25,844 nucleotides of DNA from a virus: IMG/VR virus record IMGVR_UViG_3300042006_000233, positions 1 to 25,844 of that record; one strand, written 5' to 3'. The notes under the pieces were generated by a model. The model worked only from the letters and a program-made list of their open reading frames with translations. It did not search any database and was not told the origin of the DNA. Below, in pieces: positions 2,357 to 9,092 of this stretch (positions are counted from its first letter, which is position 1; every line of letters begins with the position of its first letter). Position numbers and translations under genes: made by a program.

Positions 2357-4035
2357 GCTGCCTCCTCCATCTGACTCACGCTCAATCCAACTGCAACAGG
2401 GCGCACCCACACCGGCATGTTGCTCAGCATGAATGTTTCGCCGGCTTCGGCCAGCAGTAGGGTGGTGCCCATCGCATGGGCGATTGCTTCGGCGGCTGCC
2501 GGCGGTACTGCGTTGCCGATCCGCTCGCGCCATGCCTGATCGCTCAGGCCGTCCAGCTCTAACTGCTCTTCCGGTTCAACCAGACTTTGCAGCGCAGCCA
2601 GCTCCAGCGTGGTGAATGGTCGGTGCCAAGTTCCATCAAGGCTCTCAATCACGCAGGTCAACCGGTCGTTGGCTTCCGGCATGCGGGGATCTGCAACCGA
2701 CCAGCGACCGTTGTCCTGCTTGGCGCTGGCCGACACGGCGCCGCATTGCTCGTTCCAGCCGACGACGCCGTAGTGGCCGCCAGTCAGGTAGGCATCACCC
2801 TTCGTGCGTTTCATGCCTGGGCGCGGATCGGCGATCGATAGTTGTCCACCCTGAACGCCTTTTCCACCGGCGATGATGGTGGAGCTGTGGCGATCAAACC
2901 TCATGACGGCCAAATTGTTGCTGTGCCGTTTCCAGTTCGGCCGTGGATCTGCGACGCTGAACGTCCCTTGCCCGGGCGATTTGACGCCGATCACCGCTCC
3001 GCTTGTTTCGTCCCAGCGACGCACGCCGTATTGCTGGTACTGCAGGGCGCCTGCCTTGGCGCGCGGATCCGCAACCGAGAACGCGCCGTTCGTTGGGCTG
3101 CTGCGCCCAGCTACGGTACCGGCGGTGTCCAGCCATTCATGCACACCGAGATAACTGGCGCGGTATTCCGGCACGATCACCAGGTCACGCAGGTAACCGT
3201 CCTCGATCGCTAAATCGTTCAGGCTGCGCCAGTCCTTGCCGGCGGTAACCAGGGCGAGGCGAACCCACGTTTTCCATTGCAACGCTGGCACCCGGTGCAT
3301 TGGGCCAGCGGCTTCGATATCGCCGGCCGGCGGCATGCGGCCGAGGATCGAGCCGACAGACTTGAGCGTCTTCTTTTCAGGCTCGTACAGGAACGGCGGT
3401 ACCTTCCCGATATGGCGGGCCACCAGCAGGAAGCGCTTGCGGCTCTGGGCCAGGCCACCGATGACGCCGCAGTCGTGAGTGGTTTCGGCGACCGCGTATC
3501 CGTAGTGGTTCAGCAGCTTGTTGATCTGGTCCAGTAAGTGGCGGCCACGTGTGGCGAGGCGCGGCACGTTCTCGAAGACGATCAGCGACACCGGGTCGTC
3601 CTTCCACGCCTCACACATCAGCCAGATGCAGCGCAGCGTCAGTTCGTTCAGGGCTTGATACTTCGGTGTCAGGCTCATTGTTTCGGACAGCAAGCCCGAC
3701 GCCCCTTTGCATGGGCTGGAAATAAACACGGCGTCCGGACGCTCGTTGCTGGCAGCGCGGTGCAGGTCGTCGGCGCTCGCCTCAGTCCAGCCGGCTGGCG
3801 GCTCTTTACCGTGGAAGCGGGTGTACTGGTCGCGGGTGAACAGATCCATTAGCGTGCCAGGAACGCCGGACAGTCGCTCGAAGTCGCGTAGGCCTGCCGG
3901 ATCTACGTCCACGCCACCGATGCACTGCCACTCGGCTTGTATGTGCCCAACGATAGGTTTGGCCCGGTTGAATCCCTTAGCGCCGCCGCCCAGGCCGCAG
4001 CACATATGAAAGTGCTTGAGAATGCGCTTGATCAC
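2353..4035 (-). CDS. DNA (cytosine-5-)-methyltransferase
   Basis: This 560-residue enzyme is expected to transfer a methyl group from SAM to C5 of cytosine in a specific DNA sequence, probably protecting phage DNA from restriction. C5-MTase motifs appear in order: motif I CCGLGGG (about 12-18), motif IV with catalytic Cys in SSPCKG (Cys about 109), motif VI ENV (about 155-157), motif VIII QSRKR (about 197-201), motif IX RPFTTLELAALQ (about 472-483) and motif X GNAVPP (about 507-512). Between VIII and IX the target-recognition region is long and built from repeats (separate entry). The GTG at 4035 is chosen because it overlaps the upstream stop as GTGA and has AAGGAG seven bases away. A start at 4098 would overlap the upstream gene by 67 bases. 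No restriction endonuclease is seen, so it is an orphan enzyme. Confidence 0.92.
   Translation of the reverse strand: MIKRILKHFHMCCGLGGGAKGFNRAKPIVGHIQAEWQCIGGVDVDPAGLRDFERLSGVPGTLMDLFTRDQYTRFHGKEPPAGWTEASADDLHRAASNERPDAVFISSPCKGASGLLSETMSLTPKYQALNELTLRCIWLMCEAWKDDPVSLIVFENVPRLATRGRHLLDQINKLLNHYGYAVAETTHDCGVIGGLAQSRKRFLLVARHIGKVPPFLYEPEKKTLKSVGSILGRMPPAGDIEAAGPMHRVPALQWKTWVRLALVTAGKDWRSLNDLAIEDGYLRDLVIVPEYRASYLGVHEWLDTAGTVAGRSSPTNGAFSVADPRAKAGALQYQQYGVRRWDETSGAVIGVKSPGQGTFSVADPRPNWKRHSNNLAVMRFDRHSSTIIAGGKGVQGGQLSIADPRPGMKRTKGDAYLTGGHYGVVGWNEQCGAVSASAKQDNGRWSVADPRMPEANDRLTCVIESLDGTWHRPFTTLELAALQSLVEPEEQLELDGLSDQAWRERIGNAVPPAAAEAIAHAMGTTLLLAEAGETFMLSNMPVWVRPVAVGLSVSQMEEAA
2683..3147 (-). repeat. 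four tandem protein-level repeats in the methyltransferase target region
   Basis: Between motifs VIII and IX the motif S(V/I)ADPR occurs four times, at residues about 320, 360, 400 and 446. The spacing is 40, 40 and 46 residues. Each copy is preceded by a similar block with an aromatic residue, an acidic or polar turn and a small hydrophobic strand (such as GVRRWDETSGAV and GVVGWNEQCGAV), then a Gly-rich turn. The DNA copies have diverged, so this is a protein-level repeat rather than a recent duplication. Confidence 0.75.
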
Positions 4036-6661: not shown

Positions 6662-6698
6662 GGTTTTGCCTCGCTCTGTGGTGGAAGAGTAAGACAAA

Positions 6699-6736
6699 TG
6701 TCAACTGTTGGTTGTTAAATGTCAACTGCTGGTTGA
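6699..6736 (-). promoter_or_regulatory. left operator pair (OL-like) with TTGACA boxes for the leftward early promoter
   Basis: Two 19-bp near-identical direct repeats lie at 6696-6714 and 6717-6735, spaced 21 bp apart. Within them are the interrupted palindromes TCAACTGTTGGTTGT (6701-6715, one mismatch) and TCAACTGCTGGTTGA (6722-6736, perfect TCAAC-N5-GTTGA). Read leftward, each repeat contains a consensus -35 TTGACA (6704-6699 and 6725-6720). No good -10 is visible at 17 bp, so the exact start is open. The same palindrome occurs beside the repressor gene. Confidence 0.75.
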
Positions 6737-6740
6737 TATT
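6712..6740 (+). promoter_or_regulatory. weak candidate rightward promoter for the Abi-like gene
   Basis: TTGTTA (6712-6717), a 17-bp spacer and GATATT (6735-6740) match four of six consensus bases in each box. The boxes overlap the left operator pair, so transcription of the Abi-like gene could be repressed by, or compete with, the leftward promoter. The remaining leader 6741-6858 is AT-rich with no other feature seen. Confidence 0.3.
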
Positions 6741-6858
6741 TTTTTCGTTCTTTGGTCCCTTTGCATTGAGTCATAGACTGTGTGGTGGCTTTTCGATAGC
6801 ATTTATGGTTTTTTGCTGAGTGCTTATCTTCTATTGAAGAAGAATTACAGGAGTTAGT

Positions 6859-7071
6859 ATGTTGCTTGAGAAAAGGCTGGCCGCTGAATATAGGAGAAAG
6901 CTTCGAAACGAGAAAATATCCATTTTCTTTCGCAAGATCCTTATAAATTTTTATGATAAATGTTCATGGATGCGTTTTGGGCCGACCTTTCTAGCTGTTA
7001 GCCTTTTCCTTATTTCCTTATTTCCTTATTTCCTTTGTCGCATTTATTTTGTGGTTGAAAGTCTCGGTTAA
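6859..7071 (+). CDS. N-terminal part of a split AbiC-like abortive infection protein
   Basis: This 70-codon reading frame has the only good translation start in the locus: AGGAG (6849-6853) five bases before ATG 6859. It encodes a basic cytoplasmic N terminus (MLLEKRLAAEYRRKLRNEK) and then one membrane helix rich in Leu, Phe and Ile. It stops at 7071, just after an 8-bp repeat tract at 7005-7035. The downstream 316-codon frame continues with the parts expected next in the putative abortive-infection family but is in another frame and has no ribosome site. One extra repeat unit (+8) or two fewer (-16) would fuse both into a single open frame of 382 or 374 residues. It is read as the 5' part of one gene. 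Confidence 0.65.
   Translation: MLLEKRLAAEYRRKLRNEKISIFFRKILINFYDKCSWMRFGPTFLAVSLFLISLFPYFLCRIYFVVESLG
7005..7035 (+). repeat. 8-bp tandem repeat tract (TTATTTCC)
   Basis: TTATTTCC occurs three times at 7010-7017, 7018-7025 and 7026-7033. The period-8 identity extends from 7005 to 7035, 31 bases or 3.9 copies. It lies in the coding part for the membrane helix of the split Abi-like gene. Tracts of this kind change length by slipped-strand mispairing, and 8 is not a multiple of 3, so each change moves the frame. Confidence 0.9.
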
Positions 7072-7999
7072 TCTTGATTTTCCATTGTTGAAGTTTTCGA
7101 ACGTTACTCAGCTTGCGTACATGGGCCAGATCGGAGATTTCTTTGGTGGTGTTCTCAATCCTCTTCTTAGCTTTATGGCTCTCATAGCTGTTTTATTCAC
7201 TATTAAAATGCAAAGTAAAGAGCTTAAAGAGGCAAAGGAAGAGACTCGGATTGCGAACCGTATTCAAGATAAACAAACGGCGGTGTTTGAACGGCAAAAT
7301 TTCGAATCAGTCCTTTTTCGATTGTTAGATGTCCATGGACGGTTATCGGAAAGAATGCGGATTAAAAACAAGTTGGGAGATGGTGATGTTTTTAAGTGCG
7401 TTGTTGATAACGTACTCGACTTGGTGAACGAAAATGAACCAAGTGTGAAAGATGCTTATATTCCTGAATTAGACTCTTGGGCGGAACGTCGAGAAGAGCA
7501 AAAGCGGCGTGACACCGATGGTCTGAGAAGGCTGGTTGTAGCTGTGGGGGAAGTTATTGATAGTGACTATAAAATATTGCTGTCACAATATTTTCGTAAT
7601 ATGTATCAAATACTAAAGTTGATTGATAATTTCAAATTAGAAGTGTATGAAGATGGGGCGGATAAAGGGAGAAAGTCTAAGAGGCAGTTGAGGATGGAGT
7701 ATTTTCAGAGGAGGCAATACTGCAATATTTTAAGAGCGCAAATCTCGGATGATGAATTGAAAGTTTTGTACTTAAATTGTCTTATGCGCACTGGTTACGG
7801 ACTTAAATATTATGTCGAAAAATATTCATTGTTGAAGCATATGGATAAGGGTGACTTTCTTCACGTTTCCTGGCAGTGGACAGCTGTATACGAAGAAACC
7901 GCGTTTGCCGATTATGAACAGATATCCGACTTTCAAATTAAAGAGTTTCAGAAAATGCGAAGCTCAACGAGCTTTTCTCACATGTTTCCACATCATTGA
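7049..7999 (+). CDS. AbiC-like putative phage abortive infection protein (main body)
   Basis: The frame encodes up to 316 residues resembling the putative phage abortive infection (AbiC-like) family. It has YMGQIGDFFGGVLNPLLSF followed by a membrane helix (about 23-50). A charged coiled segment (KELKEAKEETR) and the QNFESVLFRLLDVH motif come next. The C-terminal domain includes YCNILRAQISDDELKVLYLN and GYGLKYYVEKYSLL. Such proteins are membrane-linked and thought to stop infection by other phages. Possible starts TTG 7049 and ATG 7121 lack a Shine-Dalgarno, so expression probably needs the upstream frame (ATG 6859) and a repeat-length change, frameshifting or reinitiation. The locus is clearly AT-richer than its surroundings, suggesting separate acquisition. 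It runs toward the repressor gene and ends 21 bases from it. Confidence 0.75.
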   Translation: MWLKVSVNLDFPLLKFSNVTQLAYMGQIGDFFGGVLNPLLSFMALIAVLFTIKMQSKELKEAKEETRIANRIQDKQTAVFERQNFESVLFRLLDVHGRLSERMRIKNKLGDGDVFKCVVDNVLDLVNENEPSVKDAYIPELDSWAERREEQKRRDTDGLRRLVVAVGEVIDSDYKILLSQYFRNMYQILKLIDNFKLEVYEDGADKGRKSKRQLRMEYFQRRQYCNILRAQISDDELKVLYLNCLMRTGYGLKYYVEKYSLLKHMDKGDFLHVSWQWTAVYEETAFADYEQISDFQIKEFQKMRSSTSFSHMFPHH

Positions 8000-8020
8000 T
8001 ATAGTGCTTTTAGGATGTAG

Positions 8021-8752
8021 TTACTCTGGGATAAAAGAGCCAACGACTTTTCCGCAGATATGAGTTTCTTCCGTGATATCAATTATTGGATATTGCGGAT
8101 TGATAGGTCGTAGATATTGTCTGCCGGCGTCCTCTACTAGAATTTTAAAGGTAGCCTCATTAGTCCTAGGAACCCTTGCAATGACACGATCACCAGTCTT
8201 GGTTTCTGCCTCAGGATCAACAAAAATGATACATCCTGTCGGATAGCTGCGCCCAGGCCCAGGATTAGTCATCGAGTCCCCGAGAACCTTCAAAGCATAC
8301 CCATGGTTGCTAATCGGAACAGGGCACGATAGCCAAGAGTCAGCGTCATAGTTCTCAAAGTTTGAGATCGCCTCACACCAAGCCCCAGCTTGAACCCACG
8401 AGATCAATGGAACCTTACCAAAGCGCTGATTGATTTCACTGACGTTGCTTACGTCAGCAATGGCTAACTTGCGAACGTTATTCTCACCGGTCTGCTCTTT
8501 CGGCAGCACACCGTACTCAAGCCACTCTCTTCTTACCTTTAGCCATGAGCAGAGCGCAGACATGCTATCAGCCTCTGCCATTGCTTCGCCATTGAGCCAT
8601 TTGCTAATGGCCTGAGTGGTCTTATTCACGCCCACGCTTTTCAACTGCCGATGAATATCGACCCCGCGACCCCGGCTACGTACGCCGGCATCGTCGAGGG
8701 CTTCGTTTAGGCGCTCGCTGAAAGCTGCGCGGAGAGAATTTTTATCAACCAT
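8021..8752 (-). CDS. cI: CI/LexA-type phage repressor (S24 self-cleaving)
   Basis: This 243-residue repressor keeps the prophage silent. The N-terminal helix-turn-helix region spans about 8-75 (RLNEALDDAG, TTQAISKWLNG). The C-terminal S24 peptidase domain spans about 112-240. The predicted cleavage site is Ala122-Gly123 (WVQAGAW), the nucleophile is Ser160 in GDSM and the general base is Lys203 in ATFKIL. With these residues intact it should self-cleave when RecA is activated, so the prophage is probably SOS-inducible. It is transcribed leftward, divergent from the Cro-like gene. A TCAAC-N5-GTTGA operator spans its own start codon. It ends 21 bases from the oppositely directed Abi-like gene, with no clear terminator between them. 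Confidence 0.93.
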   Translation of the reverse strand: MVDKNSLRAAFSERLNEALDDAGVRSRGRGVDIHRQLKSVGVNKTTQAISKWLNGEAMAEADSMSALCSWLKVRREWLEYGVLPKEQTGENNVRKLAIADVSNVSEINQRFGKVPLISWVQAGAWCEAISNFENYDADSWLSCPVPISNHGYALKVLGDSMTNPGPGRSYPTGCIIFVDPEAETKTGDRVIARVPRTNEATFKILVEDAGRQYLRPINPQYPIIDITEETHICGKVVGSFIPE

Positions 8753-8759
8753 GAGTTGA
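8745..8759. promoter_or_regulatory. operator overlapping the repressor start codon
   Basis: TCAAC-CATGA-GTTGA is a perfect copy of the shared interrupted palindrome. Its centre contains the repressor ATG (8752-8750 on the minus strand). Binding here would block the repressor's own transcript just after initiation, a simple negative autoregulation. Confidence 0.7.
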
Positions 8760-8773
8760 GAGTCTCACAAAGG

Positions 8774-8800
8774 TTGCGCAATAGTCAGTTGATCTATAAC
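8774..8800 (+). promoter_or_regulatory. candidate PR promoter for the Cro-like gene
   Basis: TTGCGC (8774-8779) and TATAAC (8795-8800, five of six consensus) are 15 bp apart. An alternative -10, TAACAT (8797-8802), gives 17 bp. Operators at 8778-8792 and 8802-8816 cover the spacer and the start region, as expected for a repressed early promoter. Confidence 0.5.
8778..8792. promoter_or_regulatory. middle right operator (imperfect)
   Basis: GCAAT-AGTCA-GTTGA matches eight of the ten defined bases of TCAAC-N5-GTTGA. It lies between the -35 and -10 of the candidate PR promoter. Its weaker match suggests a lower-affinity site. Confidence 0.5.
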
Positions 8801-8801
8801 A

Positions 8802-8816
8802 TCAACCGCAAGTTGA
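8802..8816. promoter_or_regulatory. right operator next to the Cro-like gene
   Basis: TCAAC-CGCAA-GTTGA is a perfect copy of the palindrome, directly downstream of the candidate PR -10 and 16 bases before the Cro-like start. Repressor or Cro binding here would block early rightward transcription. Confidence 0.7.
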
Positions 8817-8831
8817 TAAATGGAGGTTGTC

Positions 8832-9092
8832 ATGTTGGACCCCACAGATTTTCCGAGCGCTATTGCGTTTGCTTTCGAAGCAGTGGGCGGCATTGGGGCT
8901 GCTGCCAAGGTATGCAATCGAAGCTATCAGGCTCTGAACAAATGGAGACAGGCTGCCTGCCTGCCACGAACGGATTACACCGGTGAAACCAAATACGCTG
9001 AGCTTTTAGCTGCTGCAGCAGAGCGGAAAGGCAACGCCTTTCAAGCCACTTGGCTGTTGAACGCCTCGGCTCCCCAGAAAGCTGCAGCGTAG
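8832..9092 (+). CDS. cro: Cro/YdaS-like transcriptional regulator
   Basis: This 86-residue protein has a helix-turn-helix of the YdaS/Cro type: AIAFAFEAVGGIGAAAKVCN followed by the recognition-like SYQALNKWRQ, then LPRTDYTGETKYAELLAAA. It is the first gene of the rightward early operon, divergent from the repressor, the position of lambda cro. It is expected to bind the same operators and favour lytic growth. The ATG at 8832 is chosen because GGAGG lies five bases before it; the ATG at 8820 would overlap the operator region and lacks a ribosome site. Confidence 0.85.
   Translation: MLDPTDFPSAIAFAFEAVGGIGAAAKVCNRSYQALNKWRQAACLPRTDYTGETKYAELLAAAAERKGNAFQATWLLNASAPQKAAA

Follow-up and report, generated by a model that had tools for sequence, protein, structure and literature searches.

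The window, by which we mean the whole 25,844-nucleotide stretch that was analysed, is an IMG/VR virus record (IMGVR_UViG_3300042006_000233) from a temperate phage of Pseudomonas type. A tRNA-Ser gene at its left end is probably the attachment site; a tyrosine integrase gene follows, and a YfbU-domain gene (292-885) lies between the two. The window also encodes a lambda-type portal, a gpA-type terminase and baseplate genes. Operator-like palindromes (TCAACN5GTTGA), two per side, flank the immunity region on both sides. An earlier note on this DNA, made from the sequence alone, had placed an AbiC-like gene in the prophage immunity region, and the gene indeed lies between the two operator regions, among the following features:

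5-94, tRNA-Ser, left end of the record
927-2162, tyrosine integrase
6696-6736, no strand, OL, twin operator-like palindromes at 6701-6715 (one mismatch) and 6722-6736 (exact); marks the left edge of the cargo slot, since similarity to 84 related loci stops at a median position of 6737
6859-7071, plus strand, 5′ part of the AbiC-like gene, with the ribosome site, the N-terminal segment and the start of membrane helix 1
6995-7999, plus strand, body frame of the AbiC-like gene, with the rest of helix 1, the GQIGDFFGG motif, helix 2 and the putAbiC domain
7005-7035, plus strand, exact period-8 tandem array, 3.9 copies of TTTCCTTA, within the coding sequence for membrane helix 1
8021-8752, minus strand, cI-type repressor with an S24 peptidase domain, transcribed towards the AbiC-like gene; the cargo slot is bounded on the right by the cI stop codon (8021)
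8745-8816, no strand, OR, between the cI and cro-like genes, with operator-like palindromes at 8745-8759 and 8802-8816 (exact)
8820-9092, plus strand, cro-like regulator, assigned by a match to phrog_35 (E = 4e-6) and by position

The AbiC-like gene is divided between two reading frames. Its upstream open reading frame (ORF; 70 amino acids) begins at ATG 6859, with ACAGGAGTTAGT ahead of the start and AGGAG as the ribosome site; past the array it is out of frame and stops at 7071. The body ORF (7049-7999, 316 amino acids) lies in a frame that is +1 relative to the upstream frame, is already open from 6995 and has no ribosome site of its own. All this confirms the arrangement described in the earlier note. 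Both frames cross the array and they overlap by 77 nt (6995-7071), with body-frame start codons just ahead of the first stop. The exact period of 8 reported for the array also stands, but its proposed placement beside the join does not, as the array is inside the frame overlap, within the codons of the first helix. A change of two 8-nt units is enough to explain the +1 offset between the frames.

The body matches the Pfam family putAbiC (PF16872) with an E value of 1e-20 (74.4 bits, gathering cut-off 22) and, weakly, the PADLOC AbiC model (E = 4.8e-6, residues 35-252), both of which support the proposed AbiC-like identity; in NCBIfam it has no match above the cut-off, and a protein search of phage records with the body gave no match. 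Among 25 family members, the AbiC model is matched by 14 and the AbiP model by 14. Nearly every family member from 35 viral loci encodes a hydrophobic helix upstream of GxxGDFFGG within one ORF, which upholds the suggestion that a membrane helix before GQIGDFFGG is a family feature, normally encoded with it in a single ORF. The window copy has its helix codons divided between two frames, and no one ORF carries helix and motif in succession; we therefore read the gene as a broken copy of a putAbiC family member that does not work and that has lost the anchor which nearly all of the family retain. The same upstream helix rules out a natural start at GQIGDFFGG, with one apparent exception, L015, that looks frame-shifted itself. 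In this locus the N-terminal part of the AbiC-like prophage gene (2860-3120) is apparently frame-shifted without a repeat array; in another, L034, the AbiC-like gene is truncated.

Lactococcal AbiC and AbiP (PADLOC PDLC02343 and PDLC02351) share with this family a conserved C-terminal domain and an N-terminal membrane helix, but the relation is distant, the protein here is a prophage product of about 375 residues and the anchor in the window is out of frame. AbiP has been described as a nucleic-acid-binding protein anchored in the membrane (Domingues 2008, as cited in PMC10127798). An AlphaFold model of an intact relative, L002 (pLDDT 82), is all helical; as it has no significant match in PDB or BFVD and no solved structure related by sequence was found, the model adds no mechanism. 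The family names were not found in the papers that were searchable, so the anti-phage activity of the family is one that we infer.

In L002 (76% identical to the window) and L003 (74%) one uninterrupted ORF, of 373 and 374 residues respectively, begins at the corresponding ATG; as in the window, the gene and cI are convergent, and window residues 1-48 align to the N termini of the two proteins. Both relatives are exactly 16 nt, or two units, shorter at the array, which neither of them has; the window allele is therefore best read as a gain of 16 nt, and the older state is settled. This agrees with the claim that a change of unit number in the 8-bp array broke the gene. The array region of the window differs from these relatives in sequence as well as in length. 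The more distantly related L006, L007 and L008 also have the gene as one ORF. A scenario allowed for at the outset, in which all related loci would be equally out of frame and decayed, does not apply, as the relatives are in frame; nor, with the one apparent exception given above, does one in which family members begin at GQIGDFFGG without a helix. Beyond the array the body has no further stop or frameshift, and a pN of 0.14 against a pS of 0.84, with silent sites near saturation, indicates purifying selection. With no other lesion and a body under such selection, the break appears recent. Relaxed selection on the window lineage was considered and set aside, as the excess of replacement changes on it was not significant (15/46, compared with 24/111 for the lineages of the two relatives pooled; P = 0.16).

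The slot in which the gene sits is a stronger result than the split gene. A repressor-based search yielded 80 viral loci, and cI was present in 22 of 399 Pseudomonas genomes (E ≤ 1e-80). Similarity of the window to related loci, which stops just past OL, resumes at the stop codon of cI; between these points (6737-8020 in the window), the window and loci L042-L143 have 74 filled slots, of 776-3583 nt and with 38 protein clusters, whereas in 12 relatives the slot is empty and OL follows cI after 48-61 nt. Cargo includes Septu PtuAB, a CBASS-type cyclase, DRT5, a Lamassu LmuB protein, SIR2 proteins, KAP/PifA-like and NACHT proteins, a PDC-S28 helicase and AbiC-like genes. Fixed flanks, unrelated and interchangeable defence genes and empty alleles together mark the slot as a prophage defence hotspot, and we infer that its cargo is expressed in lysogens and acts against phages. 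The AbiC-like cluster in the slot has eight members, all convergent with cI, and seven of the eight are intact, the window copy being the sole split one. Of the 74 filled slots, that of the window is least covered by ORFs and is alone in having a split cassette gene and in having an array with a period of at least 4 and at least 3.5 copies. As the window alone combines a split with an array, we link the break to the array.

The array is unlikely to be a chance product of composition. It is unique within the window, where 100 shuffles gave an expectation of 0, and none of 20,000 order-1 simulations of a gene of equal length and composition produced an array of this size; the 1.04 Mb of fetched loci contain only five arrays with a period of 4-12 and at least 3.5 copies. 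The gene thus has a tandem array above chance whose unit number alters the frame, as phase-variable genes do. A Pseudomonas genome locus, L009, has a further 8-bp array, 4.9 copies of TTCGTAGG, at 6684-6722, downstream of an AbiC-like gene and outside the matched gene.

We consider it probable that the window holds a recently inactivated, membrane-anchored AbiC/AbiP-like gene, one of the interchangeable cargoes between OL and the cI stop, that was likely broken by two-unit slippage. Slipped-strand mispairing during replication would most likely have added two 8-nt units to the T-rich stretch that encodes the first membrane helix: the comparison with relatives demonstrates the additional 16 nt and the frame shift, and the repeat itself makes slippage their most likely origin. 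Slippage explains the break, given that, across the 74 filled slots, a split cassette gene and an array of this kind each occur once, and in one and the same slot. The only ribosome site would now yield a peptide of 70 residues; any cytosolic domain that is made would lack its anchor. Family membership and the other cassettes in the slot lead us to expect that intact relatives express the protein in lysogens and that it acts from the inner membrane to abort infection by other phages. On this reading the break is recent, arose by two-unit expansion and is reversible in principle. Slippage could undo the frame shift by contracting the tract, and in this respect the reversible reading of the earlier note is still plausible, with no sign of selection for reversibility.

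That note had gone further and proposed a phase-variable switch. Such a switch would be private to this phage lineage, with units gained and lost frequently and the membrane-anchored exclusion protein made by only some lysogens. The exact array of 3.9 units, with a frame-changing period, in the 5′ part of the gene and far above chance, speaks for this; the body is otherwise intact and under selection, and its freedom from further decay, taken above as a mark of recent inactivation, would be predicted by a live switch as well. PolyG tracts in Campylobacter phages are a precedent for phase variation of phage genes (as cited in PMC11868660). As in such simple-sequence-repeat systems, a change of repeat number in the window shifts the reading frame; unlike them, the window shows no copy-number variation, its tract is not conserved, and it has a period of 8 in fewer than four copies. 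L002, L003 and the other AbiC-like genes of the slot have no such tract (save for a 3.2-copy, 5-bp run in L089), the tract is short, a single state is known and one slippage event would look identical. Other repeat-number alleles were found neither in IMG/VR, with flanked and exact DNA patterns, nor by DNA search of the 399 Pseudomonas genomes, in which essentially only the leader and OL were matched; each result is weak evidence. Phase variation of the AbiC-like gene is possible but unsupported, and we judge an evolved switch unlikely. If the array does switch, the phage would carry a phase-variable defence gene.

Somewhat less likely again is an assembly or sequencing artefact, in which case the gene of the true phage would be intact and its array would have another number of units. 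The source is an IMG/VR virus contig, the gene is otherwise intact and no other one of the 74 filled slots has a split cassette gene, all of which would fit an error; however, it is general knowledge that ordinary short reads are longer than a 31-nt array and that a gain of 16 nt is not a homopolymer error, and the array departs from the relatives by sequence, not by length alone. Programmed +1 frameshifting or re-initiation, which would join the frames into one chain or deliver the protein in two parts, has in its favour the 77-nt overlap and the body-frame starts just before the first stop. It is nonetheless very improbable: no relative is split (L002, L003, L006, L007 and L008 are single ORFs), on which ground programmed frameshifting was rejected, and a product of re-initiation would be without the anchor helix.

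Taken as a recent inactivation by slippage, the AbiC-like gene is a modest case, but it draws attention to a defence slot with sharp boundaries and exchangeable contents in a family of Pseudomonas temperate phages. Defence genes beside cI are known from lambda (rexAB), Salmonella BTP1 (bstA) and Pseudomonas putida (RexABpp) (PMC8585504, PMC12894663). These too adjoin the repressor in a prophage immunity region, whereas the slot described here runs from the OL operators to the stop codon of cI, its cargo faces cI in convergent orientation and many unrelated systems take each other's place. Hotspots at which related prophages carry interchangeable defence systems at one locus have been described for P2-like phages, P4-like satellites and, between cI and integrase, K139-like vibriophages (Rousset 2022, PMC9122126); the present slot differs in phage group (lambda-type portal, gpA-type terminase) and in position (cI to OL), and we found no description of it in the papers searched.

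Many of the 38 slot clusters are without a known system and are placed where known defence systems sit. Cassettes without a PADLOC match include a HIT-domain protein with a second protein (L064, 4747-5938), a membrane-like protein (L076, 4715-5785), a 591-amino-acid protein (L047, 4759-6534) and a DUF2806 protein (L054, 4743-5780). We regard these four as candidate unnamed defence systems, and their shared position with known systems makes them ready candidates for testing.
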